A stretch of DNA of 64,000 bases from an uncultured Tateyamaria sp. (GTDB lineage: Bacteria > Pseudomonadota > Alphaproteobacteria > Rhodobacterales > Rhodobacteraceae): assembly GCF_947496075.1 (NCBI RefSeq), contig NZ_CANMBJ010000004.1, positions 496,001 through 560,000 on the forward strand, read 5' to 3'. Under the pieces are notes generated by a model. It searched no databases and had not been told where the DNA came from. It saw nothing but the letters and a program-made list of their open reading frames with translations. This document shows positions 4,252 to 41,872 of this stretch, piece after piece. Within the stretch, counting starts at the first letter, position 1. Every line of letters begins with the position of its first letter. Position numbers and translations under genes: made by a program.

Positions 4252-4396
4252 GATGCCGCTCCCAAAATCAATTTAAGAATGCCGTCAGTCTGGCACGCCC
4301 CATGCGAGCGGCGCAACGGGCCACCGAAGCGGTTAAGCGGTTCTTCACCGTCGGCGTGACATATGATGTGGGAATCTTGTGTGGCGGAGGACCGGT

Positions 4397-15004: not shown

Positions 15005-15507
15005 TGGGCCCCGGAGAAATCAGGTGTCACATGGTGGGACGGATTTCGGATCATGGAATTTCAATGGGTTATGGAGACGGTTTTACCGTTTGTTAGGGTT
15101 TGGAGACAGGATACTCTTCGTTCTGGGAGACTTCTGACCTTCGGCTCAACAACAGAAATGCGCAAAGCGCAGGAAGTGGACTTTGCAAAGTTTGGTCGAA
15201 TGACCGCTATGAGCCCAGACCTGCCGATTGCTGCCGAATGATCGGCGAACTGCACCTAAGCCAAGATTCACTCACTTGAACTTGCTCCTCAGTTTGACTT
15301 GCTTCATGGTGCACTCGAGTAACGGGAGCAATTCGCGATTGCATCGTTCGAACCCGCACCTGAGATGCCTGCATGGTCGGGTAGTCCAACCAGAATTGCA
15401 CAAGTGCTAGATGTGTTTTGGTCGATTGCAAGAGGCCAAGTAGTCCAAGTAGGTCGGTGAGCGCGCGTTCAATTTGGAGCGCTTGGATTGATCCCCGGAG
15501 TCAGCAA
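15005..15507 (+). other. Intergenic region without a supported gene
   Basis: About 500 nt between arfB and the AraC-type gene. Short ORFs on both strands have no good ribosome-binding site and no recognisable motif. A short element GTAGTCCAA occurs twice (about 15382 and 15438). Base composition is more AT-rich than the core genes upstream. It probably marks the edge of an acquired patch. Confidence 0.4.
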
Positions 15508-16560
15508 ATGAGTTTGCCATACTACAGGATTAAGCCCACTGAACACTCTTTCATAGCCGCAATTGAGCAATGGCGCGCATCGCGACGTGATATGTACGAC
15601 ATTGCCGCTCTCAACGGCGATTTTGGCCGGAGTTTTTTCCAGACCACCGCTTTTAGATCCGACAACATCGTTTTCTCCAAAACACGTTCTCGCAACCTTT
15701 TTCTGAGCCGACATCGGCGCCAATTGGACAGCGATGTGTCCGGGTTTGTCCGAATAAAATTTACGACGGGCAACCAGCTCTTAAACAGCAATTCCGGGGA
15801 GTTTGAAAACTCAGCTCGAAGAGCACTTACGGTTGTTGACTACTCTCGGCCCATCGACATGTTCATTAGAGACGTACAGGAACTTGGCGTGTACTTGCCC
15901 CACTCAGCCATTGATTTTCAGCCGGGTCAAATGAACGCTCAGACTAACTTCTGTTTGGATAGCGCTGCAGGGCGCATCTTGAGTTCCACAATGGCGACGA
16001 CCTACTCTCAGCTTCACCAAGCTACCATCGAAGACGCCAGCAGTATCGCTTCAGGTTTTGCCGGATTGGTGCGCGGCCTGCTGGAAGGTGGGGCGATGTC
16101 ACAAAACGAAAGCAAGATGCAGCAGGCCAGAGCTCGATCTATGCGTGATTTCTTGGAGCGAAATCTGCGCGACCCTGATCTCAGCGCCGCCACTCTACAG
16201 AAAGCTTTTGGTGCGTCTCGCGCGACTGTCTTTAGGGATTTTTCCGGGTATGGCGGTATCGCCCGCTACATTCTAAACAGACGACTAGAGCGTGCGCTCA
16301 GCGATCTCGCCGAGGCAGCTCCGAAGCGCGGAGAAGTAACACGGACTGCGGAACACTGGGGATTTCTTTGCGCCAGTCAGTTTAGTCGCGCATTCCGCAG
16401 TCGTTTTGGGTTTGCACCAGGCACTGCCATAGGAACCCTGTTCAATCCTCCCTATGCTGGACAGACCTCAATCGGCGGAGACAAGAGTCAAATGGCTCTC
16501 GGGATCCAAGGTGATCCAGGCCGCCTTGAGAAATGGCTCTCGCAATATGGATCTCGGTAG
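15508..16560 (+). CDS. AraC-family transcriptional regulator
   Basis: A 350-residue regulator with an N-terminal AraC-binding-domain-like region (PF14525 type, about 20-200) and a C-terminal double HTH (about 240-335; LSAATLQKAFGASRATVFRDF and CASQFSRAFRSRFGFAPG). The frame is open 30 codons further upstream, but the ATG at 15508 has GGAG 7 nt before it. It is more AT-rich than the flanking core genes. Neighbouring Pth2 and the transposase scrap suggest acquired DNA; its target genes are not evident. Confidence 0.83.
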   Translation: MSLPYYRIKPTEHSFIAAIEQWRASRRDMYDIAALNGDFGRSFFQTTAFRSDNIVFSKTRSRNLFLSRHRRQLDSDVSGFVRIKFTTGNQLLNSNSGEFENSARRALTVVDYSRPIDMFIRDVQELGVYLPHSAIDFQPGQMNAQTNFCLDSAAGRILSSTMATTYSQLHQATIEDASSIASGFAGLVRGLLEGGAMSQNESKMQQARARSMRDFLERNLRDPDLSAATLQKAFGASRATVFRDFSGYGGIARYILNRRLERALSDLAEAAPKRGEVTRTAEHWGFLCASQFSRAFRSRFGFAPGTAIGTLFNPPYAGQTSIGGDKSQMALGIQGDPGRLEKWLSQYGSR

Positions 16561-20140: not shown

Positions 20141-20800
20141 TCAGATCACCTCGTCCGTGCGGTCGTCACTTTCGCCGTAGCGTTTGAGGACAGCCGGTTT
20201 GGTGCCTTCGTACACCCGGGCCACGTTTTCGGCAATCTTGGCGTTTTCGCGCTCAAACAGGCAGTCGCCGTTCAGGTCTGATGCCACAATGAAGGGTCCC
20301 ATGCGGTTGCATTTGATGACCCACATGGCTTGGGCCAGGCCCAGTTCCTCGTTCCAATGCACCGCTTCGACGTTTTCCACGCCGCGACCCAGCAAGGCAC
20401 CGGTGCCATAGCCCACCGTGGACAGGTAGACGGCTCCGTTTGGGACGAAGTATTCTTTGTAGTCTTTGGACGTCATGCCGCCCTTGCCCACGATCAGCTT
20501 GGCCCCGGTCTTGGCCATCCATTCCGGCAGCCATTTGGCAAAGCGGAAGGAGGCGGTGGCGGTGACGGCCCCCATATCGAAGCTGCCATCGGGGTTGATG
20601 CGGGCGGCAGGCGAGCAGTGGAAATTCGCCGCCGATTGGCTGGGCAATTCCATCGGGATGTTCGCCTTGTCCTCGAGCGCGCGCATGTAGACACCCTCGC
20701 GCGCTGTGTACATCAGGCCATCGAGGTAGACGACATCACCGAGGCGCAGGTCGGCAATGGCCTCACCGGTTGGGGTGGTCGATAGAACGATTTCGCGCAT
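20141..20800 (-). CDS. Class I fumarase/tartrate dehydratase-like hydro-lyase, beta subunit
   Basis: A 219-residue subunit matching the C-terminal (beta) domain of class I fumarases and L(+)-tartrate dehydratase TtdB: early LRLGDVVYLDGLMYTARE, then GAVTATASFRF in place of the usual GPTTS-RM, then VGKGGMTSKDY and AVYLSTVGYGTGALL. It should pair with the alpha subunit encoded at 21400-22356 to hydrate or dehydrate a C4-type dicarboxylate. It starts 3 nt after the SDR gene. The altered GPTTS motif suggests a substrate other than fumarate. Confidence 0.85.
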   Translation of the reverse strand: MREIVLSTTPTGEAIADLRLGDVVYLDGLMYTAREGVYMRALEDKANIPMELPSQSAANFHCSPAARINPDGSFDMGAVTATASFRFAKWLPEWMAKTGAKLIVGKGGMTSKDYKEYFVPNGAVYLSTVGYGTGALLGRGVENVEAVHWNEELGLAQAMWVIKCNRMGPFIVASDLNGDCLFERENAKIAENVARVYEGTKPAVLKRYGESDDRTDEVI

Positions 20801-20803
20801 GTT

Positions 20804-21403
20804 TCACTCCACGATCAGAACTTGGCCCGTCACGGCACCTTCGACGGATTTCACATATGCCGCTCCGACCTTTTGCGACGACACCGGGATATGCCCTCTG
20901 AACCAGTTGCCATAGCGGGGCATGGAGGCTTCGAGCACTTCAGGGCTGACCACATTGATGCGCAAACCGCGTGGCATCTCAAGCGCGGCGGCCTTCACAA
21001 AGCCACCCAAGGCCCCATTGGCAGCGGCGGCGTTTGTGGCCATCGGGATCGGATCTCGATCCAATACACCGCTTGTTAAAGTGAATGAACCGCCGTCGTT
21101 CAGATGATCCAAGCCTTGCAGAACCAGATTGACCTGACCCATCACTTTTTGGGTGAGACCGATCATGAAGGTTTCTTTGGTCTGATCCACAAGTGCCGCA
21201 AAATGCGCATCGCCTGCTGTAGAAACAAGCGCATCCAATGGGCCGACCTTTTTGTACATCTCGGCTACGGAAGTGGGATCGGAGATATCGACTTGAACAT
21301 CGCCCGAAGACCGCCCGGCCCGGATGATCTCGTTGCGTTCAGACAAGGCGTCGCAGGCAGCTTGACCGATGTCCCCATTTGCACCAACTACGAGGACCTT
21401 CAT
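20804..21403 (-). CDS. Short-chain dehydrogenase-like protein (atypical active site)
   Basis: A 199-residue Rossmann protein beginning MKVLVVGANGDIGQAA. It is shorter than classical SDRs, and the usual YxxxK is not visible: the corresponding stretch reads NGALGGFVKAAALEMPRGLRINVVSPEVL, so the catalytic Tyr is missing or replaced while the following Lys is kept. Its ATG overlaps the alpha-subunit stop (ATGA), giving tight coupling. By operon logic it could oxidise the hydroxyacid product, but loss of Tyr leaves the chemistry open. Confidence 0.78.
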   Translation of the reverse strand: MKVLVVGANGDIGQAACDALSERNEIIRAGRSSGDVQVDISDPTSVAEMYKKVGPLDALVSTAGDAHFAALVDQTKETFMIGLTQKVMGQVNLVLQGLDHLNDGGSFTLTSGVLDRDPIPMATNAAAANGALGGFVKAAALEMPRGLRINVVSPEVLEASMPRYGNWFRGHIPVSSQKVGAAYVKSVEGAVTGQVLIVE

Positions 21404-22356
21404 TCCGCGGCCTCTCGCTGTGGTTCCCATTCAACGGTTTCGCGGCGCTGGTAGTCAGTGAACCAGTCGGGATCGGTGCGATGTTCCACCCGGCCATCAG
21501 CATGAATGCGCGCGACGGCGCGGCGGGATGAGAGGCAGAAGGCGTGCACCGACATAGGCATCCCGCCCGTGTGGCAGTACCCGACCTCGATATTGCAATC
21601 GATCACCATGTTCTTGCCAACAAAGCCCATGGCGCCCATGCCGATGGAGTTGCCGAGGTCCTTGAACTCATCCTCCATCTCGGCGATCCGCGGGTCGGAA
21701 TTGCGGCTGCCCACGATGCGTAGGGTCGAAGCGCGTTTGCCCAATGTCATGCAGATATCCTTGGACCCGCCCAGGCCGATCCCGATGATGGCCGGTTGGC
21801 AGGCGAGGCCGCGTTTGCCGAACGCCATGAGGCTGTCGAGGTAGAACCGCTTGATCCCCTGAATGCCGTCGCTGGGGAACAGCATCCGGTAGTCGGTGCC
21901 GAATAGCCCGCCCTTGTGCACGGTGATCAGGTCGATCCATTCGCCTTCCGGCTCGAACCCGTATTCGATTTCGGGCGCGCCAATGCCGACATTGTTGTCG
22001 TGATCCGTCCGCCACAGCGGGTGCACGCGGTTGGGGCGCAGGGGCACGCCGTTGGTGGCGTTGGCCGTGGCGCGGCGCAGAGCAGCTTCAAGCGCGACCA
22101 TGCCGCCCTCGACCCGGGCGTCGTTCCCCATCTTCACGAACCAGCGCGGCACGCCGGTGTCGCCACACATGGCGCGGCGGTCTTCCTTGGCCGCTTCGTA
22201 GTTGTCGAGCATGGCCTTGAGGACGAAGGAGGACAGGTCGCCATCCTCGGTCTTGGCCGCGTGTTGCAGTCCATCGAGGTAGTCTTGCGGGATTTCGATG
22301 GCCGCCTTGTCCATGAGGACCTCGGCGGTGGATTGGATGAGGGAGATGGGGATCAT
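21400..22356 (-). CDS. Class I fumarase/tartrate dehydratase-like hydro-lyase, alpha subunit
   Basis: A 318-residue subunit of the iron-sulfur class I hydro-lyase family. Seen: MCGDTGVPRWFVKMG with the first cluster Cys, AIIGIGLGGSKDICMTLGKRA with a second Cys, and NIEVGYCHTGGMPMSVHAFC with further Cys and His. These correspond to the FumA/TtdA N-terminal domain that carries the [4Fe-4S] cluster. It pairs with the beta subunit at 20141-20800, with an SDR gene inserted between the two subunit genes. Confidence 0.87.
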   Translation of the reverse strand: MIPISLIQSTAEVLMDKAAIEIPQDYLDGLQHAAKTEDGDLSSFVLKAMLDNYEAAKEDRRAMCGDTGVPRWFVKMGNDARVEGGMVALEAALRRATANATNGVPLRPNRVHPLWRTDHDNNVGIGAPEIEYGFEPEGEWIDLITVHKGGLFGTDYRMLFPSDGIQGIKRFYLDSLMAFGKRGLACQPAIIGIGLGGSKDICMTLGKRASTLRIVGSRNSDPRIAEMEDEFKDLGNSIGMGAMGFVGKNMVIDCNIEVGYCHTGGMPMSVHAFCLSSRRAVARIHADGRVEHRTDPDWFTDYQRRETVEWEPQREAAE

Positions 22357-22366
22357 GACGTGAGAC

Positions 22367-22849
22367 CTAAGTTAGCGTTTCTGCTGAATCGAAGATTACA
22401 CTGCTGAGTTCGCGTTCCGTTTCTGGAGTCCATTGAGCATCCTCGTATCTGACCCAAAACCGAGTTGCTCTCAGTTCTATCTTGAGATCATAGAGAAAAG
22501 ATAGAACACCGGTTACATCGCTGACATCCTCTGGAAAGAAAGTGAATTCCACATCCGCACTGCCGTCATCCATCCATTCGACGTAACACTGCGCTTGCCC
22601 AAAAACTGCTCTTCCCGATTGGAGTAAAATGAGTAACGCGCTAGAGGTGGAACAGGCAGGTTCTGAAAGCTGATCGAAAGCAACGTCTTTACCGTCTTGG
22701 TCAAACACTTTGATGGTTTTGAAATGCTCGTCAAAGTACTTGTAGACTTCGTTGATACAGACGTGTTCCACACCCACAAAGTTGACGTCTCTGCAAGATC
22801 CGTCGGCATCTAGGACAGCAGCTCGAATTTGATCAGTTAGTTGGTTCAT
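22367..22849 (-). CDS. Hypothetical protein embedded in the dicarboxylate operon
   Basis: A 160-residue acidic soluble protein, MNQLTDQIRAAVLDADGSCRD..., rich in Asp, Glu and aromatic residues, with no signal peptide or membrane segment and no family I recognise. It is more AT-rich than its neighbours. Its ATG overlaps the flavoprotein stop (ATGA) and it ends 10 nt before the fumarase alpha start, so it is expressed with the operon. It could be an assembly factor, a regulator or an inserted orphan. Confidence 0.7.
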   Translation of the reverse strand: MNQLTDQIRAAVLDADGSCRDVNFVGVEHVCINEVYKYFDEHFKTIKVFDQDGKDVAFDQLSEPACSTSSALLILLQSGRAVFGQAQCYVEWMDDGSADVEFTFFPEDVSDVTGVLSFLYDLKIELRATRFWVRYEDAQWTPETERELSSVIFDSAETLT

Positions 22850-24603
22850 TGCGCCGCCACCAACGTTTCTGGTTCACCCTCTGGCAAGATCGTTTCGCCG
22901 GGACATACGATTGTGAATTGAACGGGTTCGCGGGTGACGTTGACCTCTTCGCTTTCGAGGGTCGCGACTGTGAAATCGCTGTTCTCCAACCCGCCGTCTT
23001 CGGGGAAGTCCTCGCGATAATGCGCCCCACGGGAGTTTTCGCGAGCGATTCCGGCCTTGGTGATGACTTCTGAGATATCACAAAGTGACCGCAAATTCAG
23101 CCAGTCATGCCAGGTGAGGTTGAAGGCCAGATTGCTGGCATCCACGCCTACATTCATCAGCGCGTCCGACACCTGCGCAATGCCATCGAGCCCGCGCTTC
23201 ATCCCCGCCTCGGTCCGCATCACGCCGACCTCTTCCCACATGCACTCCTGAAGCTGTTTGCGCAGGGGCAGGATCAGGTCGGGTTTCCGGGTCAGTGGAT
23301 AGGTGGCGCGTTCGAATTCGGCGGCCAGCACGTCCTCGTCCGGGTCGCGCAGCGTCATCGCACCCACGTCATGGCCCATCGTGTCACCCGCGATGCCGCC
23401 GTAGACGGTGGAGTTGGCGACCCCGTTGCCACCCAGCCGGTTTGATCCGTGCGCGCCGCCTGCGTCCTCGCCTGCGACGTATAGCCCCTCCATCGCGGTG
23501 CGCGTGTCCACATCGACCACGACACCGCCCATGAAGTAGTGGGCCGTCGGCACCACCTCGACCTTGCCCGCGGCGAGATCAAAGCCGCTGTCGGCGCAGC
23601 GTTTGACCATGCCTTTGAATTTCTGAGCCACCCAGTTCGGGCCAAGGTGGGACATGGAGATGAATACACCCTCCTGATCCGGATTGTTGTTCTTGCGCAT
23701 CTCGGCATAGATGCCGCGACTGACGACATCGCGGGTGGCACGCTCGCCCTTGCCGTCGTAGTCGAACATGAAGCGCTGGCCGGAGTGGTTGATCAACTGC
23801 CCGCCTGCCCCGCGCAACCCTTCCTCAAGCACCGTTCCAGTCATGCGCGTATGGTCACCAGCGAGGAGGCCCGTGGGATGAAACTGCACCATCTCCATAT
23901 CACGCAGCGGCAAGCCTGCGCGCAGGGCCATGGCGAGGCCGTCCATCGTCTTATCCCCCGAGGGGGTGTGATACTTGTACATGGTTGGGCCACCGCCCGT
24001 GGCCATCAGCACCGTTTTGGCGCGGACCAAACGAAAGCGTCCGGTGCGCATGTCGATCATCAGGACGCCCGCCAGCGCGGAGCAATCTTTCGTTGGAATG
24101 AGGCCCACCGCCCGGTGTTCTTGCATCTTCTCGACGCCACTCGCCAGCACCTTTTCCATCAGGCGGTTGATGATCTCGATTCCCGTCAGGTCGCCCTTGT
24201 GCACGGTCCGGTCAGCGGTCTGGCCCGCGAATGCCTTTTGGTGAAGCGACCCGTCGGGATTGCGATCAAAGAAGCATCCGACCTCGTTCTCCAGCTCGCG
24301 GATGCGCACCACGGCCTGTTCGCACAGGCGCCACGCCATGTCCTGATTGGGCAGCCACTTGCCGCCCTGGATCGTGTCCATGAAGTGCCGCTCGACCGTG
24401 TCGCCGCCGCCCAGCGCAACGTTGTAGCCGCCCTGCACCATGCGGGTGCAGCCGCATTTGCCGATCAGCCCCTTGACGGCGATGCTGATCTTGGTGCCTT
24501 CGGGGGCGGTCTGTTGTGCGTGCAGCGCCGCGAAGAGGCCCGCGCCCCCGGTGCCGAGGATCAGGATGTCTGTGTCGTGGCGTTCGATATCGCTCAGTTT
24601 CAT
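22846..24603 (-). CDS. Succinate dehydrogenase/fumarate reductase-like flavoprotein subunit
   Basis: A 585-residue FAD protein: dinucleotide motif ILGTGGAGLFAALHA at the N-terminus, substrate-site motifs QFHPTGL, HYFMGGVVVD and GGAHGSNRLGGNG, all as in SdhA/FrdA. The region that in SdhA/FrdA reads SHTxxAQGG and binds FAD through His reads GCTRMVQGG here, so the covalent-link His is replaced by Cys. That suggests non-covalent FAD or altered redox potential. Its stop codon lies in the start of the hypothetical gene; the SdhC-like gene ends 1 nt upstream. Confidence 0.88.
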   Translation of the reverse strand: MKLSDIERHDTDILILGTGGAGLFAALHAQQTAPEGTKISIAVKGLIGKCGCTRMVQGGYNVALGGGDTVERHFMDTIQGGKWLPNQDMAWRLCEQAVVRIRELENEVGCFFDRNPDGSLHQKAFAGQTADRTVHKGDLTGIEIINRLMEKVLASGVEKMQEHRAVGLIPTKDCSALAGVLMIDMRTGRFRLVRAKTVLMATGGGPTMYKYHTPSGDKTMDGLAMALRAGLPLRDMEMVQFHPTGLLAGDHTRMTGTVLEEGLRGAGGQLINHSGQRFMFDYDGKGERATRDVVSRGIYAEMRKNNNPDQEGVFISMSHLGPNWVAQKFKGMVKRCADSGFDLAAGKVEVVPTAHYFMGGVVVDVDTRTAMEGLYVAGEDAGGAHGSNRLGGNGVANSTVYGGIAGDTMGHDVGAMTLRDPDEDVLAAEFERATYPLTRKPDLILPLRKQLQECMWEEVGVMRTEAGMKRGLDGIAQVSDALMNVGVDASNLAFNLTWHDWLNLRSLCDISEVITKAGIARENSRGAHYREDFPEDGGLENSDFTVATLESEEVNVTREPVQFTIVCPGETILPEGEPETLVAAQ

Positions 24604-24604
24604 G

Positions 24605-24955
24605 TCACACCGCCTGCATCAGAAAGAGCGTGGCAATCAGGAAGGACAGGGCCGTCGCACCTGCGGCGAGCGTCTTTTGCGGAGGCGTCCACGGAAGCCA
24701 TTCCATCGCCATGAGGCGCAGGCCGCCGAACATGTGGACGGCCAGCAGAAAGACCAGTCCGACCTCTGCCAGTTTGACCGCTCCGATGTCTGTCAGCGCC
24801 AGAAAACCATCCAGCCGCGCGGGGTTCGTCAGGGCCAGCGACAGGATCCAGAAGTGGAAGGGTAGGAACAGGGCGAGGCCGAGCCCCGACAGCCGGTGCA
24901 GGATATAGGCGAGCCACAGGGGATGCACCCGCGATGTTATGCCTGCGGCCCTCAT
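24605..24955 (-). CDS. Succinate dehydrogenase cytochrome b-like membrane anchor (SdhC type)
   Basis: A 116-residue membrane subunit with three hydrophobic helices and the motif YILHRLSGLGLALFLPFHFW characteristic of SdhC. It would hold haem b and the quinone site together with the next subunit. The ATG at 24955 forms an ATGA overlap with the stop of the upstream anchor gene, which settles the start over a longer frame. Confidence 0.85.
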   Translation of the reverse strand: MRAAGITSRVHPLWLAYILHRLSGLGLALFLPFHFWILSLALTNPARLDGFLALTDIGAVKLAEVGLVFLLAVHMFGGLRLMAMEWLPWTPPQKTLAAGATALSFLIATLFLMQAV

Positions 24956-25284
24956 GCGAATGTCACGGCCCAGACGGCCCGTGCCCCCAGTGCGAAGAGG
25001 GCAAAGCCCACCACCCACATGAATACCTCGAGCGCTGTGTCTTTCAAACCGCCCCACTCATGCACAACCGTGCGCAGGCCGATGGCGCCGTGGATCGACA
25101 CGGCGGCAACGAACAGGCCGTAGAACAGAAACCAGGCGATGGACCCTTGGGTTCGACCCAGGATTTCGGCGGCGCTTAGCCCCCCTTGGATTGCATAGAT
25201 CATCACGGCGAGGTGGCCGAGCACCAGCGGTGCCATCAGGAGGGCCGTGATCCGTTGCAGCATGTAAAGGCGCAAGCTCAGCAT
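24952..25284 (-). CDS. Succinate dehydrogenase second membrane anchor (SdhD type)
   Basis: A 110-residue protein with three membrane helices; MLQRITALLMAPLVLGHLAVM and VSIHGAIGLRTVVHEW carry the His residues expected near haem and quinone in SdhC/SdhD-type anchors. Its ATG overlaps the iron-sulfur subunit stop by one base (TAATG). It completes a four-subunit membrane complex that transfers electrons between a dicarboxylate and quinone. Confidence 0.83.
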   Translation of the reverse strand: MLSLRLYMLQRITALLMAPLVLGHLAVMIYAIQGGLSAAEILGRTQGSIAWFLFYGLFVAAVSIHGAIGLRTVVHEWGGLKDTALEVFMWVVGFALFALGARAVWAVTFA

Positions 25285-25997
25285 TAGCGGCCCCTCCGGA
25301 AAAACGACTTGGCCGTTTCGCGTTTCAGACCGGCGATGGCGGACATCGGGTCGAGATCGTTTGGGCAGTAGGTGGTGCAGGAGCCCATCGAGTGGCAGTT
25401 ATGACAACCGCCACTGCCCGAAACAGCGTCGAGGATGGCCACGCGCCCTTCGTCCTTTGCGTCATTGAGCAAGGTCCATGCGCGTTGCAGCGCAGCCGGG
25501 CCAAGATAGTCGGGGTTGCCCGCAACGGTGTCACAGGCCGCATAGCAAACCGAACAATTGATGCATTCGATCCCGGCATTTGCCTCGACCCGTGCTTCGC
25601 TGGTTTCGTCTACCGGGGCGATTGGGTCGTCGCGGGTCAGGGTGCCATGATGCACACCTTCGGCCCCGACCCACTTGTCAAAGAACGGGTCCATATCGAC
25701 GACCAGATCCTTGACCACCGGCAGATTGCGCAGAGGGCCAATAGTAACCGCGTTGTCCTTGAGGACCTTGGACATGTGCGTGCGACAGGTCCACCGGGGC
25801 ACCCCGTTTACCATCATTGCGCAACTGCCGCACATCCCCACACGGCACGCAAACCGGTAGCTGAGCGTTGGGTCGGCATTCTGCTGCACCCAAGACACAA
25901 CGTCGAGCACGGTTTGGCTTTCGTATGCGGGCACGTCGAACACATCCCACGTGTCCGGGCCACGTTCGATGGTTACCTTGAGCGAATGTGCTGTCAT
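25284..25997 (-). CDS. Succinate dehydrogenase/fumarate reductase-like iron-sulfur subunit
   Basis: A 237-residue SdhB/FrdB protein. [2Fe-2S] ligands are visible in FACRVGMCGSCAMMVNG...WTC, a [4Fe-4S] set in CINCSVCYAAC, and the third-cluster set in GCHNCHSMGSCTTYCPNDLDP. The Pro usually following the last Cys of the second set is replaced by Asp. It is the first gene of a tightly coupled minus-strand operon running to about 19387. It faces the divergent nitroreductase gene across a 129-nt promoter region. Confidence 0.92.
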   Translation of the reverse strand: MTAHSLKVTIERGPDTWDVFDVPAYESQTVLDVVSWVQQNADPTLSYRFACRVGMCGSCAMMVNGVPRWTCRTHMSKVLKDNAVTIGPLRNLPVVKDLVVDMDPFFDKWVGAEGVHHGTLTRDDPIAPVDETSEARVEANAGIECINCSVCYAACDTVAGNPDYLGPAALQRAWTLLNDAKDEGRVAILDAVSGSGGCHNCHSMGSCTTYCPNDLDPMSAIAGLKRETAKSFFRRGR

Positions 25998-26967: not shown

Positions 26968-28002
26968 CTAGGCTTGGAAATTGGTGATGACAGCGGTGCC
27001 CGGCGGGGTGGGGCCATGCATGGCCCGCAATTCGGCGCTGGCACCGGACAAGGGAACCTCGCGCGCCACCATGGGTCTCAGGTCAACATCGCCCCGCTCG
27101 ATCATCGACAGGAGCGACGGGTACTTCCACGCAGGCATGCCGCGTGTGCCGAAGAACGACAACTGCTTGGTATAGATCGCCCGCATGTTCACCTGCATCA
27201 TGCCGGAACCCGCTGGCATACCCACATGCACGTGGCGGCCCAAGGTGCGCAGGCAATCCACCGACGCGTTGGTGGTTGCTTCGATCCCAAGGGCTTCGAC
27301 CGACACATGGGCGCCGCCGCCGGTGATGTCCCGGATCGCAGCGGCCGCGTCGGTATCGGCTGCGTTTACTGCTGCATCCGCGCCAAGGGACTTGGCATGG
27401 GTCAGCTTTTCCTCGACCACGTCCACAACAACCACCTGTGCCCCAAGCATCTTGGCCAAGAGCAGCGTGGCAAGGCCAATGCCCCCGGTGCCATGTACGG
27501 CCACCCATTCACCTGCCCGCGCATTGGCCCGATCGGTCAGCGCATGCCACGCGGTGGTCACCCGGCATCCCAGACCGGCGGCCAGCGCGGGTGTCATCGT
27601 ATCGGGCAGATGCACGAGATTGTGGTCAAATGGCACGGCCACGTATTCCGCATAGGCGCCCGGCACCCCGAAGCCCGGCACCACCTGGTTTTCGCAGGTA
27701 TTGGACACACCGGTGTGGCAGGCTGGGCAGTCGCCGCAAGACAGGATGAAAGGTGCGATCAACCGGTCGCCCAGCGCGTGTTTCGCATGTGGTCCCGCAT
27801 CGACCACCGTGCCGCAGTATTCGTGGCCGAGGATCGATCCGTCTTGGACGCGAGGATGTTCACCCGTCCATCCGTGATAGTCGGATCGGCAAACGCCGCA
27901 GGCCGCGACCTCGAGAACGACGCCGTTGTCGGGGCAAACCGGGTCGGCCACCGTTTCGATCGACAAGTCTTGGCTGAATGTGCGGACGACGGCTGCGCGC
28001 AT
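26968..28002 (-). CDS. Zinc-dependent alcohol dehydrogenase family protein
   Basis: A 344-residue medium-chain dehydrogenase. Catalytic zinc ligands are in GVCRSDYHGW and GHEYCG; the structural zinc loop is CGDCPACHTGVSNTC; the NAD(P) motif is VHGTGGIGLATLLLAK followed by acidic VVDVVEEK, which favours NAD. It is the last gene of the set behind lodB (75-nt gap), so it may process an aldehyde or alcohol made by, or feeding, the quinoprotein system. Confidence 0.9.
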   Translation of the reverse strand: MRAAVVRTFSQDLSIETVADPVCPDNGVVLEVAACGVCRSDYHGWTGEHPRVQDGSILGHEYCGTVVDAGPHAKHALGDRLIAPFILSCGDCPACHTGVSNTCENQVVPGFGVPGAYAEYVAVPFDHNLVHLPDTMTPALAAGLGCRVTTAWHALTDRANARAGEWVAVHGTGGIGLATLLLAKMLGAQVVVVDVVEEKLTHAKSLGADAAVNAADTDAAAAIRDITGGGAHVSVEALGIEATTNASVDCLRTLGRHVHVGMPAGSGMMQVNMRAIYTKQLSFFGTRGMPAWKYPSLLSMIERGDVDLRPMVAREVPLSGASAELRAMHGPTPPGTAVITNFQA

Positions 28003-28077: not shown

Positions 28078-29202
28078 TCAAAAAGTATTCTCAGCCTTCG
28101 GCACCTTGCCTGTTTTGGCATATGTGCCGGCCCTGCGTGCCCAGAACGGGCGATCCACCCATCGTTGTTCGGTGCTGTAGACCTGATGCAATGCCGTCAG
28201 ATACTGTTCGACCCCCTTGGCAACACTTTCGGCGTAGGCGTGCATCTTGCCCCGATCCTGCGCGACAAACGCATCCGCAGCTTGTATGGCGGACCAAAGT
28301 GCAGTTGTCATGCCGTGCGACGAAAGAGGGTCAAACGCTGCGGACGCGTCTCCTATCGCGACCCACCCAGCGCCGATGGCGGGGGCGATCCAGCTGCTGT
28401 TTGTCGTGATCCGCTTGGCATCGCCGCTTATCCGGTAACCGTAGTCCGAGAGATAGGCTGATATGGCCTTGGTACGGTGCGCATTTTCCTCGAGCTGCGC
28501 GTTGTCAAACCCGGGCAAGTCCGCGTCTGAATAGAAGTTCACAATGACGCGTTGGTCAGCCAAGACGGACATGTACCACCATCCGCGCGCTTCGGCCTCG
28601 ATCAGTGTGACGGGCCTTGGGTCTTCCAGCGCCGAGCTGGTGAACAAAGCGTATTGGCAGCTCAGTTTGTCGGCTTGAAACCGGGTTGCAAACTTTGATG
28701 CGACAATTGCCTTCCGTCCGGTGGCATCGAACACGAAACCCACCTTGATCTGATTGTCACCGGCATCCAGGTGCCAAAGCCCGTCGGCAACGCGCAGGTT
28801 GCCAACGTCCTGTTCAATCCGTTGGGCACCCGCAGCGACCGCCTGTGCCGTCAGGGCATCCTCGAACGCGCCGCGATCCAGGACGATAGGTGGGCCTTCG
28901 AGATGAACGATTGCATTGCGTTCGACCAGCATGTCGCTGCCCCAAGCCGAATAGGTGCTGTGGGCATGCCGGTGGACTTCGGACCGCAGCATCGCGTCTG
29001 ATCCGAGTGTTTTCAGCAGCGGAATGGCGGCGGCGCTGAGGTGTTCGCCCGGTTTGAAGGTATCCTGCCGGTTCTGCGCGATCCAAACGGGGTGTAGGCC
29101 GCCCTGCGCCAAACGCAACGCAGCCGCGGCCCCCGCGATCCCGCCCCCGAGGACGGCAACCTGATGGATCAATTGGGCAACATCCCCTGGCTCGGGTTCC
29201 AA
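28078..29202 (-). CDS. lodB: LodB-like FAD-dependent maturation flavoprotein
   Basis: A 374-residue flavoprotein with N-terminal FAD motif VAVLGGGIAGAAAALRLAQGG and C-terminal GWVAIGDASAAFDPLSSHGMTTAL, the FAD motif of the flavin monooxygenase/halogenase group that includes LodB. LodB proteins act in the cytoplasm to form the cysteine tryptophylquinone of the LodA partner. The gene overlaps the lodA end by 34 nt if the ATG at 29202 is used; a TTG at 29172 that overlaps the lodA stop is an alternative start. Position directly after the lodA-like gene supports the call. Confidence 0.82.
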   Translation of the reverse strand: MEPEPGDVAQLIHQVAVLGGGIAGAAAALRLAQGGLHPVWIAQNRQDTFKPGEHLSAAAIPLLKTLGSDAMLRSEVHRHAHSTYSAWGSDMLVERNAIVHLEGPPIVLDRGAFEDALTAQAVAAGAQRIEQDVGNLRVADGLWHLDAGDNQIKVGFVFDATGRKAIVASKFATRFQADKLSCQYALFTSSALEDPRPVTLIEAEARGWWYMSVLADQRVIVNFYSDADLPGFDNAQLEENAHRTKAISAYLSDYGYRISGDAKRITTNSSWIAPAIGAGWVAIGDASAAFDPLSSHGMTTALWSAIQAADAFVAQDRGKMHAYAESVAKGVEQYLTALHQVYSTEQRWVDRPFWARRAGTYAKTGKVPKAENTF

Positions 29203-31196
29203 TCGAACCGGGTTTCCATGTTGTCGGCGTGCTGCATCTCGACAAACACATCACCTTGGGGTGACGGCATCCTGACGACAAACCCCATCCGTTCCCACAC
29301 AGTGATCATGTTGGTGATCCCATCCCAGTAGCTGGAATTGGCGTGGTACCCGATGCCTGCGACGCCACGCGACCAGTTGACCCGGCTTGTAAGGAACTTG
29401 TCCCGCTCGGCTTCGGTCAGGGTCTCATCAAGGCTGGCGGCGTAGTAGGGTTCGGGCAACACATCGATGGGCAGCAAGGCTGGCCACCACACGGCGGTGG
29501 GATAGTTCTGCTGCAGCAGCACCTGTTGGCAACTGAACGCATCGCATTGCCATGGCAGGCCCATCCACCGGGTCAGGTCGCCTGCCATCTGTGGTCCGAT
29601 TGCGGGCGGCGTATCTTCAAATCCTCCGAATGCAATCTCGGGCGTCAACAAACGGCCAAGGTTCTGGTTCAGGCTTGGTCGATCCCCATGCGCGATGCGG
29701 AATGGTTCAGCTGTTTCATCGTAGTTGCGCGCATACATCTCTTTGAGCCGCAGGTAGTAGGTCAGTTCCACCCCGGGATGGAACGCCCCTCCGGAACAGG
29801 GTTCGAGCGCGGCTTGGGTCAGCGCCCCCGGCTGCAATTCGAGCGGGATGTCATCGAAGCTTTGGTAGTCTGCTATCGGATCCTCGGGGAATTGTCCGTC
29901 ATAATCGTCGACAAAGTCACCCGCCGCCCAAGCAACTAGATAGTCATATTGCAATTTGGGGAACTGGAACCACTGCAGGGGACTGCCGTCATAATTCACG
30001 CCGTCGCCCAGCATATAGGGGATCTTCAGTCGTTCTTCGATGTAGGACGTGTCAGTCAGGTTGTAAGGGTTGCGGAACAGATCGAAAATGGATTGTCTGA
30101 ACGCGGCATTCTCTGGCGACGGGTCAGCAAGTTGCGCCACGTAGGCAGGGTCGCTCAGGTCTCCAATCGCCATCCAGCCCTGACGCAAGTTAGCGGCTTG
30201 TGTCACCCACTCCATCAACGCAACCCGCCTGAAGGTTGGGTAGATGTATGTCATGAATGAGATCGGAAGCGCTGGCGCGTCTGACCAACCTTCCTGCACG
30301 TTCAGGTCGGCGACCAAGTCATAGAGCGTGGTAATGGGGGGAATTTCCGGCGCGAAGTTTGGACCGACACAGGCCACCCATGACGGTTCAGCCTCAAGCA
30401 TCTGATCGCCAATTTGCACCAGCGCGGTGACCGGTCCATCGCACCAATCGTCATGCCAAGCGTTGTTGTCTGCAAAGCTTGTGATTGCGGCATTGCTGGG
30501 TGAATTGGACACGCCGTCCGGTGGGACCACCAGCAAGCGCCCGGCATCATCGGTGCGAAGTTGACCCAAACCGACCGAGATTGCGTCAGCCTGCCCACCC
30601 CAGAACGTCCCTTCGAATTGGTAGTTGGAATCGTTGCCAGCCTGATTGGTGCCAAGTCCCGAAATTTCGCGCGCGCCACCGTCGATGATCAGGTTTTCTT
30701 CGCGGTCCGCATTCGTGACAAAGTATTGATTGCGCTTTTGCGAAGGCAGGCCGGGGGCCAGATCACCATTGTCGAGAGGATTGTTGAACCCGTACCAGTT
30801 CGCCTTTGTGTTGGCCAAATGGACGCCCCACGTGATGTCCTCGCCCGTGACTTCGCCAATGATCCTGTCCTCTGCGTCAAAGGCATAGACGCGAAAGCGC
30901 TGGACCTGCTTTTTGACCTTCTCAAGCCCGTCCTTGAAATTTCCATCCTCGGGCTGCGGTGGCAGACCCGGCACTTCGGGCGCATAAAACCATTTTGGTG
31001 ATCCCCCCACGCGGCAAATGCCCAGCGCGGGGTAAATCCGCACTTTGGCAACAGCAGCGTCGGATGCTGCCAGTTCGTAGACATTTTGTGTATTTATGTT
31101 CGCCCGCGCGGGCCAAGGTGCCCCTGCGATCAATGCTGCGCTTGACGCCATGCCAAGAAACTGGCGACGGGATTTGAAATCTGAACGATCTGACAC
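29169..31196 (-). CDS. lodA: LodA-like CTQ-dependent quinoprotein oxidase with Tat signal
   Basis: A 675-residue protein of the LodA/GoxA family, whose members oxidise free amino acids using a self-derived cysteine tryptophylquinone. Seen: twin-arginine signal SRRQFLG (residues 9-15) with a hydrophobic stretch ending ARA, early family motif IYPALGICRVGGSP, a candidate cofactor Cys (about 467, PCSGGAFHPGVELT) and candidate Trp pair (about 570-571, WWPALLP). GTG at 31196 is taken as start because GAGG lies 6 nt upstream. A longer frame to 31241 fortuitously encodes another RR motif. Tat export would carry the folded, LodB-matured enzyme to the periplasm, beside the hexahaem cytochrome. Confidence 0.85.
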   Translation of the reverse strand: MSDRSDFKSRRQFLGMASSAALIAGAPWPARANINTQNVYELAASDAAVAKVRIYPALGICRVGGSPKWFYAPEVPGLPPQPEDGNFKDGLEKVKKQVQRFRVYAFDAEDRIIGEVTGEDITWGVHLANTKANWYGFNNPLDNGDLAPGLPSQKRNQYFVTNADREENLIIDGGAREISGLGTNQAGNDSNYQFEGTFWGGQADAISVGLGQLRTDDAGRLLVVPPDGVSNSPSNAAITSFADNNAWHDDWCDGPVTALVQIGDQMLEAEPSWVACVGPNFAPEIPPITTLYDLVADLNVQEGWSDAPALPISFMTYIYPTFRRVALMEWVTQAANLRQGWMAIGDLSDPAYVAQLADPSPENAAFRQSIFDLFRNPYNLTDTSYIEERLKIPYMLGDGVNYDGSPLQWFQFPKLQYDYLVAWAAGDFVDDYDGQFPEDPIADYQSFDDIPLELQPGALTQAALEPCSGGAFHPGVELTYYLRLKEMYARNYDETAEPFRIAHGDRPSLNQNLGRLLTPEIAFGGFEDTPPAIGPQMAGDLTRWMGLPWQCDAFSCQQVLLQQNYPTAVWWPALLPIDVLPEPYYAASLDETLTEAERDKFLTSRVNWSRGVAGIGYHANSSYWDGITNMITVWERMGFVVRMPSPQGDVFVEMQHADNMETRFDWNPSQGMLPN

Positions 31197-31342
31197 AATA
31201 CACCTCTTTAAAAAATTCCTTCGAGACAAGCGTCTACGCAAAGGCTCAAAAAATCAACCATAAGGTGTGTCGTTCGGCTGGATAAAATGCAATTGCGGGT
31301 TTGACCAAGCAAAGCGTTTACAAACGCAAGCGCATGGGGGTT

Positions 31343-34300
31343 TTAGCGCAGTTGAGCACTGTCCCCTTGTATCTTCAGCTTCCAATCTTCGATCAATGTA
31401 CCTTTGGTTTTTAGGCGGCTGGCCAGATAGTACAGGCGCTGTGTTGCCGGACCATTTGGTGCCGTTTCAAAGCGCTGTTTGAGGTAGTAGGGCGGAATGG
31501 CCTGAGAATAGAGTGTGGCCGCGACGGTCACATCCTTGGCGTCGACACCGGATGGCAGCGCGATCTTGTAGGTCAGTTCATCTTTTCCCGCTTTCACGCC
31601 CTCATCATGCTCTGCCCGGCCTTCTGGCATTGTTGCCTTCATGAAGGCGGCTGTGACCTCTGACGTGCCAAACCGTTTCACGAACGCTTCCGTGCCGGGT
31701 TCGGCTGCCCCCCATGGCAGTAACCGGTTGTCCTTCGGGTGATAGACCCGATGGACGAAGCTGGTCGTGAATTCCCTTTTGGCGTTCTGCGTCAGCTCTT
31801 CGTAGATTTGGACCTGTGTCTCATCATCAATCAGATTGTAATGTGGCTGATACAGTGCCTCGGTCGCGCCTTCGGGTACAAAGTCCAGGAACTCGGTTTT
31901 CAAGGGCTGTTTGTCTGGTCCGATGATGACCCCGGCGCCGTTTGTGCAACCGGAACACCAAAGCTGCGTGCCACTGCCATCGGTCACTCGAACTTCGAGA
32001 AATGCGCGGCGGAAGCCGACGCCGGATGGCAGACGGTGACCGGTCTTGTTATCGACGCTGACCACGGCTTCGAGCGTGCCGTTGCTTTCCGTCAGGCTTT
32101 CGATTGCAACATCTGCCGTTTCATCCCGCGCCTGCAGCGCCATCGTGTCGAGTGCCAGTTGCGCGCCGTTTGTCGCGTAAGTCATTGGATCCTTGGGACC
32201 CAATCCCATCTCTTCGTCGAATTGCGACAACATCTTCACCATGAAGGCGTTGAGACCGACAAAGTTGTGACGTTTGTAGGTGTCGCGGAACGGCACATCG
32301 ATCTCTTCATGCGGTAGCGCGTTGGGCACTTCGGGCAGGTTGGTGTCCTGGATTGATGCGATTTGCGTGGTCAGGCTTTCGATATTCACCGTCCCATCCA
32401 GAGTTTCGAAGTTGCTTTTCATGTGGCAGTCCTGACAGGACTGCGCCGTGCCCGCATCGGCGAATTCACTGTTCTGCCATTCAATGAATGTCGCCTGTTC
32501 AACCGAGTGCTGAAACTGCACCAGCGGCTCGCGATAGGTGACGCCAAACTCATCCTTCAGGAACGCAACCGCATTCTTTGCGGAGTCGTTGAGGATGGCC
32601 TGTTCGGCAGGTGTGAACCCGGGCAGCGGCTGATCTGTTGCGGCATCCACATTGGGCAGGTTGATCGTATGGCAGGCGCCACACATCTCGCTGTCCTTGA
32701 TGTAATCATTGTGCAGCGGCGTGATGCCCATCGCATTCTGCATCGGCTTTTGTCGGACGTCAGAATAGGGGCCGATCAATTCATCCGCAGCGTTCATGCG
32801 GAACACCCCGGTTGTGCCGTTCATCAGATAGGTATCGAGTTTGTTGTAATCCGGTTGTCCATCCGCCCGCTCTGGCGGCGCGATGTGGTGGCACACGGCG
32901 CACGAGATGCCCTCGCGCGCGAGGTTTCCATATTCGTGATAGGGGTAAGTGCCGTCCGCGATTTGCTGGTCTTTTTCTTCAAGCGTCAGCGGGTCATGCA
33001 ACAGGACGTATTCGGGTTTGAAGTTATTGCCGTCCAGTCCGAGATCGGGATTGGCATGTGCGTCAATCTCAAGCTGGCGCTGTCCCATGGCACCGTGACA
33101 GGACAGGCATGTCGTGCCCAGGTTGCCGGACAAGTCGCCGACACCGGCTTGGTCCAGCAGCGCAAACTCTGATTCCAGTTGCGCATAGAAAATCGGGTCG
33201 CGCCCGGCCAGACCCATGGGGGACCAGCGCCATTCGCCGTATTCCGAGATGTTGTAGCCATCGCCATAGTCCGGGCCGTTCTTGATGAACATGGTCACGC
33301 CTGATGGCGCGCCGCCCAGGCCGCCATGGCATCCAAGACAGTTGTCGGAGGTCAGGAAATGCTGGGTGTCATTGGGGCGGGCGGGCACATGGTCCAGCCA
33401 TTCGCTTGGCAGGGTCTGCAAGTTGGCACGCGTAATATCGACCCCGCCCGTGCCGGGGAACATGGCGGTGAACTCGGGGTTCTGATCGACGGGAGACGCG
33501 GTTGCGGCCGCCACATGTGCGGCGCGCATGGCAGCCGGATCGTGGGGATCGTTCAAATAGGCTTTGATCAACGTCGTCAGATCCACACCGAATGCAGGTT
33601 TTTGCTGTTTTGGCAGGTCTCGCCAGCTTTCATCGACGCGGAAGATCAACGGTTCGCCCGGATATCCTTCGATGTTCTCAAGTGCGGAAAAGATCAGCTC
33701 TTCGGCCGCAGACGCATGGCAGCGCATACACATCCCGTCGCCGCCCGCTCCGAGCGGTGGGCTGTAGGGCGGCTGGAAATTGTCGATGACCGGCTTGCGC
33801 GCTTTCATGTCATCCTTGCCGGCGAAATAGACCGAGGCAAAGAACCATCCGCCATGCGACAGCTGGCTGTCCTTGACCATGACCGTCCAATTCAGCCCGC
33901 CGGTGTCATAGGCATAGTCGGCCATTTCCTTGGCGACTTTTTCGGGGTCATCCTTGTATTTTTCGACAAGCGCCGCGTGATGTTCGTTGTATTTGGCAGA
34001 CGGTGGATTCACCATTTCCTTGATGACGATTGCGCCATCTGCAATCGCGCCTTCGCGGCCGTTTTCCAGCCAGGACATGATTTCGGGGGAATAGTACATG
34101 CGCACTGCGGGATGAATCCCAAAGCTCATATTGAATACGAACGGGCCGGTATCTCTCCAGCTTTTGTCACGGTTCCAACCGAGGCCGACATATTCGCGTT
34201 TGGCGATCCAGGGGAACAGCACCCTCTCGTAGTCAATAAGCGGCAGGCTGGACGGTAGAGGAAGATCGGCGGGCTGGGATTGGGTCGGTTCACCTGCTGC

Positions 34301-34378
34301 GAATGTTGCGGTCGCGCTGACCGTTGGCAGCAGTAAAAGCAATGCAAAAACGAAAATACGTGCCCGGAACATCAGCAA
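31343..34378 (-). CDS. Hexahaem c-type cytochrome with P460-like N-terminal domain
   Basis: A 1,011-residue secreted protein with signal peptide (about 1-28). Six CXXCH haem motifs are visible: CMRCH (217), CLGCH (347), CLSCH (424), CAVCH (493), CGACH (566), CQDCH (648). The N-terminal part (about 75-220; GAIVIKEM, WTVMVKD, GGWFFASVYF ... CMRCH) resembles a cytochrome P460 domain. A haem-free C-terminal third (from about 690) is beta-rich, with DNKTGHRLPSGVGFRRAFLEV. It lies 146 nt upstream of lodA on the same strand. It may take electrons from the quinoprotein, replacing oxygen as acceptor; that is inference. Confidence 0.85.
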   Translation of the reverse strand: MLMFRARIFVFALLLLLPTVSATATFAAGEPTQSQPADLPLPSSLPLIDYERVLFPWIAKREYVGLGWNRDKSWRDTGPFVFNMSFGIHPAVRMYYSPEIMSWLENGREGAIADGAIVIKEMVNPPSAKYNEHHAALVEKYKDDPEKVAKEMADYAYDTGGLNWTVMVKDSQLSHGGWFFASVYFAGKDDMKARKPVIDNFQPPYSPPLGAGGDGMCMRCHASAAEELIFSALENIEGYPGEPLIFRVDESWRDLPKQQKPAFGVDLTTLIKAYLNDPHDPAAMRAAHVAAATASPVDQNPEFTAMFPGTGGVDITRANLQTLPSEWLDHVPARPNDTQHFLTSDNCLGCHGGLGGAPSGVTMFIKNGPDYGDGYNISEYGEWRWSPMGLAGRDPIFYAQLESEFALLDQAGVGDLSGNLGTTCLSCHGAMGQRQLEIDAHANPDLGLDGNNFKPEYVLLHDPLTLEEKDQQIADGTYPYHEYGNLAREGISCAVCHHIAPPERADGQPDYNKLDTYLMNGTTGVFRMNAADELIGPYSDVRQKPMQNAMGITPLHNDYIKDSEMCGACHTINLPNVDAATDQPLPGFTPAEQAILNDSAKNAVAFLKDEFGVTYREPLVQFQHSVEQATFIEWQNSEFADAGTAQSCQDCHMKSNFETLDGTVNIESLTTQIASIQDTNLPEVPNALPHEEIDVPFRDTYKRHNFVGLNAFMVKMLSQFDEEMGLGPKDPMTYATNGAQLALDTMALQARDETADVAIESLTESNGTLEAVVSVDNKTGHRLPSGVGFRRAFLEVRVTDGSGTQLWCSGCTNGAGVIIGPDKQPLKTEFLDFVPEGATEALYQPHYNLIDDETQVQIYEELTQNAKREFTTSFVHRVYHPKDNRLLPWGAAEPGTEAFVKRFGTSEVTAAFMKATMPEGRAEHDEGVKAGKDELTYKIALPSGVDAKDVTVAATLYSQAIPPYYLKQRFETAPNGPATQRLYYLASRLKTKGTLIEDWKLKIQGDSAQLR

Positions 34379-40290: not shown

Positions 40291-41730
40291 TCAGTCTTCT
40301 CTTGATCTCAAATAGGCAATCAAGGCTGCTCTGTCTTGCTCCGCGTCAAACCCGTCAAAACCCATAGACGTACCTGGCACGAGTGCTTTTGGTGACTTCA
40401 AGAAACTATCTAGGAGCGCCTCGTTCCAAGCACCCTGCGCGTGTCCAAATGCAGATAGCGCAGGAGAATAGCCTTCGAACGAAGGGTCAGCGGCGATCCG
40501 TTTTCCCACAATTCTGGTCAGGTCGGGTCCGACCGCCAACTCGCCCGTTGCGCTGTGGCACAAGACGCATTGGGCGAATAGCTGACGCCCGCGTTCAATA
40601 GGATCATCTGGAAGCGTGTCCAATATAGTGCCCGTATATTTGGCGCGCATGGCCAACAGATCAGCCGACTGAGCATCTGACAGACTGTTTCTTACGTTCA
40701 GCATGGCCAACGCCTGCGCCCAGGTCATGCTGGCTTCGATCTCTCCCACGGATGCGCCAATCTGCGCGACCTGAGAAGCATCAATTGTGGCACCGGACAA
40801 AGCACCTTCAAGCGTCCGCATCAGTTGCGCCCGCACTGCGAGAAAATCCTCAAATACCTCAGCATTCTGGATGGCAGCTGCGTCGAGCATCTGTTGCTGA
40901 TCTGGCCTCAACAACGCCAACACTTCATTCGCAACAGAGCCACGCTGCACACCGTGGTTCGATTCTATGCGCAAGCTGACAAATCCAAAATGCTGACTGG
41001 GCTTTCCGACGACTTCGAAGTCATTGAACTCCTGCGAGCCTGTGGTCCAGCTCAGCAGGCGGGCGGCAAGGTTCACAAGCTCTTGCTTGTCTTCTTGCGA
41101 CAGACGCAACCGTGCAGGTTGCCGGGTGATTTGGTCACCCTGACCCGAGATGTACGCGGTTCTAATGTCGTGCAGAGCCATCTGCTGATCAGGGGTTAAT
41201 GTCTGGGCGACATCGCCCAGCCGCTGTCCGATGACCCGCCCAAGCTCGGCCTCGGCTGCGCCGTAGACACGACCAAGTTCTAGAAAGGCCTCTTCAGAAA
41301 TGACTTCTCCAACCAGCATATCCTCAAGCGCGCGATTCATCTGATGGCGCGCGTTCAGGGTCCGCTCGTGCGCTGGCTTCTGATCCTCTAGCAGTGCAAC
41401 AAGCCCGCGACGCTGGTCGTCGGTCAGGACAGCCAGCGTGTCTTGCGCAACCGCACTGCGGGTCAAACTTTGTCCGCTGGAAACACGCAGAGCCACGAAA
41501 CCAAAGAAATTGGCCGTACGACCAACTGAGATGTAGTCGTTGTTGGATGAACTGCCCGTCAGCCAGGTGAGTGTTCTGGAAGAGACAGCTTCGCGCAACC
41601 GCCGCTCATCAACTTGTTGATTGGTGATGTCGCGGAGGGCTACTGCTCTATCCTGCGCAAAAGCCGAAAAGGAAAGAAGTGGGACGGCGATTAAAGCCAA
41701 AAGCACGCGGGATCGAAAACTCATGGACAT
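40291..41730 (-). CDS. Secreted c-type cytochrome with two copies of a Spy/CpxP-like helical domain
   Basis: A 479-residue exported protein. After a signal peptide (ending FSAFAQ) there are two homologous segments, about 45-195 and 215-365: compare LTWLTGSSSNNDYISVG with LLSWTTGSQEFNDFEVVG, FFGFVALRV with HFGFVSLRI, and VLTDDQRRGL with LLRPDQQQML. The helical, Gln/Arg-rich segments recall metal- or chaperone-type Spy/CpxP proteins. A class I cytochrome c follows (CVLCH, Met ligand in GTSMGF). The ATG at 41730 has GAGG 5 nt upstream. The physiological partner is unknown. Confidence 0.78.
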   Translation of the reverse strand: MSMSFRSRVLLALIAVPLLSFSAFAQDRAVALRDITNQQVDERRLREAVSSRTLTWLTGSSSNNDYISVGRTANFFGFVALRVSSGQSLTRSAVAQDTLAVLTDDQRRGLVALLEDQKPAHERTLNARHQMNRALEDMLVGEVISEEAFLELGRVYGAAEAELGRVIGQRLGDVAQTLTPDQQMALHDIRTAYISGQGDQITRQPARLRLSQEDKQELVNLAARLLSWTTGSQEFNDFEVVGKPSQHFGFVSLRIESNHGVQRGSVANEVLALLRPDQQQMLDAAAIQNAEVFEDFLAVRAQLMRTLEGALSGATIDASQVAQIGASVGEIEASMTWAQALAMLNVRNSLSDAQSADLLAMRAKYTGTILDTLPDDPIERGRQLFAQCVLCHSATGELAVGPDLTRIVGKRIAADPSFEGYSPALSAFGHAQGAWNEALLDSFLKSPKALVPGTSMGFDGFDAEQDRAALIAYLRSRED

Positions 41731-41872
41731 GGCGACCTCACCTGTTTGTTCTACTTCTAATACGGGGAGGTTGGGGGTTTCCGTCGAAAACATGCCCTTC
41801 GTTTTTGGTCAATGCGCCCCGGAGACCGGCATGGTTCTCTCATTGCAGGGGGCTCAGCCGGTTAGAGACGCC

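Follow-up and report, generated by a model that had tools for sequence, protein, structure and literature searches.

Gene organization at the locus

We examined a stretch of 64,000 nucleotides from an uncultured Tateyamaria sp. (contig NZ_CANMBJ010000004.1, called the window), in which the gene for a six-haem c-type cytochrome lies beside goxA and goxB, the predicted genes for a glycine oxidase with the cofactor cysteine tryptophylquinone (CTQ) and for its maturation flavoprotein. The initial annotation had placed a cytochrome, a LodA-like protein, a LodB-like flavoprotein, and a zinc dehydrogenase in a row on one strand. We found the same arrangement, on the minus strand and transcribed in that order (Table 1). 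The goxA and goxB genes overlap by 34 bases, as against the 146 bases between the cytochrome gene and goxA, which we counted in favor of an independent cytochrome. Terminator-like sites numbered 4 in the region, compared with 7.8 expected from shuffled sequence.

Table 1. Features of the goxAB-cytochrome locus in the window, in order of transcription
Feature	Position	Strand	Remarks
Six-haem c-type cytochrome	31343..34378	minus	1,011 amino acids; Sec-type N-terminal signal (by eye); six CXXCH motifs
P460/c'-beta-like domain of the cytochrome	33659..34249	minus	Residues 44-240; includes the first CXXCH (217-221)
Intergenic gap	31197..31342	minus	146 bases, cytochrome stop to goxA start; weak hairpin at 31327-31314
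goxA, GoxA (group II LodA-like)	29169..31196	minus	675 amino acids from GTG at 31196; reading frame opens at 31241; start chosen by eye
goxB, maturase GoxB dependent on flavin adenine dinucleotide (FAD)	28078..29202	minus	Assigned by NF038174 score and likeness to 7ctq
Zinc-dependent dehydrogenase	26968..28002	minus	Pfam family match

GoxA and GoxB of a known kind

The LodA-like protein scored 1167 bits against the GoxA model NF038173 (cut-off, 750) and 159 bits against the LodA model (cut-off, 600), and it matched the Pfam domains LodA_N and LodA_C. Its closest solved relatives were chains of PlGoxA from Pseudoalteromonas luteoviolacea (6byw and other entries; E 1.1e-65), which have 816 residues against 675 in the window's protein and aligned with it in two stretches. 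The flavoprotein scored 457 bits against the GoxB model NF038174 (cut-off, 400), so that the LodB-like partner of the initial annotation can now be named a GoxB; its closest solved relative was the peptidyl tryptophan dihydroxylase 7ctq (E 1.6e-14), with FAD halogenases next.

The two residues predicted to form the CTQ cross-link are C571 and W586, numbered on the 690-residue reading frame and not on the 675-residue protein that starts at GTG 31196. Mapping through the protein of locus L013 places C571 at residue 516 of L-lysine 6-oxidase 3weu (LodA C516), and this cysteine was kept in all 22 aligned proteins. W586 was kept in 21 of the 22, the exception being a fragment that ends before that position, and this invariance, rather than a direct alignment, suggests that it is the equivalent of LodA W581. 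The cofactor residues support the LodA-like CTQ protein of the initial annotation, as does the twin-arginine signal SRRQFLG of GoxA (TIGR01409, 19.4 bits; cut-off, 16.7). In addition, D567 and H488 align with D678 and H583 of PlGoxA, and we take H583 to have a role in that enzyme. Asp678 is named in PMC7876137.

The signal, the maturase gene, and the cofactor pair all have precedents. The twin-arginine translocation (Tat) signal and the adjoining goxB-type maturase gene have been published for GoxA (PMC3948610), the Tat motif is present in all group II LodA-like proteins except three (PMC4417212), and the Cys/Trp cofactor pair has been described for GoxA and group II proteins (PMC3948610, PMC4417212). 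Because the GoxA and GoxB scores exceed their cut-offs, the CTQ residues are kept, and a Tat signal is published for the group, the enzyme part is assigned to an already known kind, and goxA-goxB is predicted to encode an ordinary exported glycine oxidase with its maturation flavoprotein. GoxA/GoxB of Marinomonas mediterranea is among the closest known systems: the window's proteins exceed the cut-offs of the NCBIfam equivalog models, and the two systems share the Tat signal and the adjoining maturase gene. In M. mediterranea, however, the genes flanking goxAB are oppositely oriented (PMC3948610), whereas in the window goxAB is preceded by a cytochrome gene in the same orientation.

Against the QhpG model NF049967, GoxB scored 157.6 bits, under the cut-off of 240, and no protein of the window's genome exceeded that cut-off; the three best were the products of the three lodB-like genes that lie beside lodA-like genes. 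Quinohemoprotein amine dehydrogenase (QHNDH), in which CTQ lies in a small subunit beside a di-haem subunit of its own, shares with the window's system the cofactor and, in QhpG, a flavoprotein in maturation, and it differs in that QhpG is missing above the cut-off from the window's genome. QHNDH is an amine dehydrogenase and the enzyme in which CTQ was first described (PMC4417212), so that the presence of CTQ in such a dehydrogenase already has a precedent. Elsewhere in the window's genome (contig C1, locus L098, 8595-15072), two further LodA-like/LodB-like pairs stand in tandem, with LodA-like proteins 37% and 24% identical to the window's GoxA.

A multihaem cytochrome headed by a P460/c'-beta-like domain

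All six CXXCH motifs of the cytochrome are conserved; the first lies within its P460/c'-beta-like N-terminal domain, and the other five follow further on. For both structure predictions, the window's sequence was aligned with those from 25 of the 27 loci at which species genomes carry the cytochrome, with L020 and the broken L041 excluded. The full-length AlphaFold model from these 26 sequences had a mean predicted local distance difference test score (pLDDT) of 45 and was therefore kept out of the structure search. Modelled alone, the N-terminal domain shares the fold of the cytochrome P460/c'-beta superfamily, with its CXXCH near the domain end. The known members of that superfamily are small single-haem proteins, P460 proper being marked by a Lys-haem cross-link; in the window, by contrast, the domain heads a six-haem protein of 1,011 residues. 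The six motifs and the P460-like N-terminus of the initial annotation are confirmed. PF16694 itself stayed under its gathering cut-off in the window's protein (16.9 bits; cut-off, 27); it matched 25 of the 26 members at E<=0.1, at best with 2.1e-7.

A search of PDB sequences with the cytochrome profile gave only weak matches, such as cytochrome c552 5ze8 (E 0.0011) over a short C-terminal stretch. The closest named cytochrome was that of T. omphalii KCTC 12333 (96%), and the cytochrome is scattered across roseobacters and other Alphaproteobacteria. It is best taken as an independent gene whose product is predicted to be exported and perhaps handles a small N- or O-ligand; it is our guess that the P460/c'-beta-like domain acts on a small ligand or on peroxide.

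Co-occurrence of goxA and the cytochrome gene

The initial annotation had proposed that the LodA-like enzyme, once its CTQ is reduced, donates electrons to the six-haem cytochrome and so serves as a respiratory amine or amino-acid dehydrogenase of the periplasm, and had called for a search for the same gene trio in other genomes. We examined up to 8 kb on each side of the 27 cytochrome loci (less in six of them) and found goxA beside two: L015 has the order of the window (cytochrome-goxA-goxB), and L016 has goxA-goxB-cytochrome. The trio therefore recurs once as such and once reordered, but the other 25 loci had no goxA in the examined flanks.

At the level of genomes, GoxA was scored as present above the NF038173 cut-off, and duplicate entries for one genome were matched by identical coordinates (G631/G656, which is T. 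omphalii KCTC 12333 and is listed in the window's genus, and also G305/G642, G450/G655, G658/G645, G662/G638, G670/G632, and G672/G653). Genomes were searchable for GoxA at 25 of the 27 loci. Seven had GoxA and 18 did not, three of the latter carrying lower-scoring LodA-like proteins alone. Both genes occurred in eight genomes including the window's own: side by side in three, with a broken cytochrome 8.1 kb off in one, and on separate contigs in four. Within the genus (20 genomes), 9 had GoxA and 10 the cytochrome, with 6 having both, 3 GoxA only, 4 the cytochrome only, and 7 neither (Fisher, two-sided p = 0.37). A sample of the class (240 genomes; cytochrome at E<=1e-10) had GoxA in three and the cytochrome in five, both being present in the window's genome only; the two GoxA genomes outside the family, G015 and G159, gave no cytochrome match at that threshold. 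In the phylum sample, GoxA exceeded the cut-off in 2 of 329 genomes (the window's and G159).

The conserved co-occurrence on which the proposal leaned is thus largely missing. With pairing this sparse, and with each gene lost or broken independently of the other as described below, the cytochrome as the electron acceptor of GoxA finds no support. Since the cytochrome gene usually occurs without goxAB, a new respiratory enzyme is unproven.

Separate histories of goxAB and the cytochrome gene

Three loci of the genus (L085, L086, and L130) keep the order goxA-goxB-dehydrogenase-nitroreductase-fumarate reductase (frd) without the cytochrome, and the cytochrome has another locus, common to L018, L023, L030, and G657. 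In L034, a full-length cytochrome (95% identical) occupies the same locus as in the window, but goxAB is missing, and different genes fill the space of goxAB and the dehydrogenase gene. A stretch of 43 residues before the nitroreductase gene there (15429-15557; 65% identity) looks like what is left of the dehydrogenase and seems to mark the site at which goxAB and the dehydrogenase gene were lost and the cytochrome persisted. Conversely, Phaeobacter marinintestinus (L087) has full-length goxAB and a broken cytochrome (2760-4271) about 8 kb away. Hence goxAB was lost where the cytochrome persisted, and the cytochrome was broken where goxAB persisted. Of the nine loci with GoxA in the genus, five have the zinc dehydrogenase after goxB (the window, L015, L085, L086, and L130) and three have the cytochrome adjacent, which makes the dehydrogenase the steadier neighbor of goxAB.

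A narrower form of the independent-gene reading, overlapping with it in probability, is pure co-location, by which goxAB and the cytochrome, as accessory genes, insert at shared hot spots. Integrase- or transposase-like open reading frames near goxAB in L084, L086, and L087 (judged by eye, with no family search) and the replacement seen in L034 speak for it, as does a lean toward cytochrome genomes among LodA-like proteins below the GoxA cut-off, which was observed in two of three such genomes of a family sample (394 genomes from 393 genera; the window's included). However, it would have to treat two separate adjacencies as two coincidences, and we consider it evenly poised between right and wrong.

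Interpretation of the GoxA-cytochrome association

The locus probably comprises an oxygen-using GoxA/GoxB pair and an independent, uncharacterised multihaem cytochrome. We infer the site of maturation, the substrate, and oxygen as acceptor from the family; the function of the cytochrome is our surmise. By this account, GoxB would complete the CTQ cofactor of GoxA ahead of export, and the folded enzyme would leave via Tat and, by analogy with its relatives, use oxygen to oxidize glycine or another small primary amine like it, with glyoxylate, ammonia, and hydrogen peroxide as products. The cytochrome gene and goxAB would both be accessory genes, mobile and prone to loss, and for that reason would adjoin in a few Tateyamaria genomes.

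Several observations weigh against full independence. GoxA was present in 7 of 25 cytochrome genomes, as against 3 of the 394 genomes of the family sample. In that sample, the cytochrome accompanied GoxA in 3 of 3 genomes (one copy broken) and occurred in 10 of the 391 others (p = 2.8e-5; 0.0009 without the window's genome). The adjacency in two orders, with the window and L015 on one side and L016 on the other, together with the 8.1-kb spacing in L087, hardly looks like random placement; we roughly estimate the probability of at least 2 of 7 lineages being adjacent by chance at 5e-4. Moreover, GoxA and cytochrome identities (84-94% and 67-96%, respectively) were moderately correlated across seven genomes (r = 0.50), with a naive p of 0.02 from 21 non-independent pairs. 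A residual association of goxA with the cytochrome therefore remains. Because the numbers are small and the LodA-like proteins below the cut-off lean likewise, we read it as a habit common to accessory genes, or as a benefit that is optional, and not as the mark of an obligate electron-transfer pair.

The adjacency in two orders and the 3 of 3 genomes of the family sample would also speak for a respiratory dehydrogenase, along with the two adjacent genes sharing a strand and both products having export signals. Against it stand the 18 cytochrome genomes without GoxA, the 3 of 9 GoxA genomes in the genus that lack the cytochrome, L087 with its intact goxAB and broken cytochrome, the lack of a cytochrome match in G015 and G159, and the fact that the LodA and GoxA enzymes characterised so far act as oxidases (PMC4417212). 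We consider it improbable. In a variant, Tateyamaria GoxA would pass electrons from glycine to the P460-type six-haem cytochrome, a LodA-family CTQ enzyme thereby serving as a respiratory dehydrogenase, in a partnership both recent and optional and therefore showing two gene orders and many solitary cytochromes; this we hold to be very unlikely indeed.

On the other hand, the cytochrome might remove the hydrogen peroxide made by GoxA or handle another of its products, a role useful without being obligatory, so that it would tend to accompany GoxA. This would account for the loose association, and there are parallels in the group III LodA-like proteins, some of which carry a fused catalase domain (PMC4417212), and in a cytochrome P460 variant that, unlike the wild type, is reported to have peroxidase-like activity (PMC11928373). 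However, the cytochrome has no CCP/MauG domain above the cut-off (14.2 bits; cut-off, 25.6), and 18 of the 25 cytochrome genomes lack GoxA above its cut-off; we regard the role as improbable.

In the open-licence PMC literature, we found no paper on LodA-like proteins with cytochrome c and CTQ and none on a Tateyamaria glycine oxidase; among the P460, multihaem, and roseobacter papers listed there, judged by titles and abstract openings, none dealt with GoxA-cytochrome pairing. With the preferred reading, of an oxidase beside an independent cytochrome, the case for a LodA-type enzyme in respiration loses most of its support, and the pair is classed as the GoxA/GoxB of a roseobacter. Should the loose link to the cytochrome turn out to be functional, it would illustrate a route from CTQ oxidase to dehydrogenase. 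The conserved, uncharacterised six-haem cytochrome with its P460/c'-beta-like head merits study on its own account.

Other genes in the window

At 20141-25997 lies a set of genes resembling succinate dehydrogenase/fumarate reductase, together with a class I fumarase in two parts and a 160-residue protein for which Pfam gave no match at E<=0.001. At 40291-41793, the window encodes a protein with a C-terminal cytochrome c domain and, judged by eye, an apparent internal duplication.

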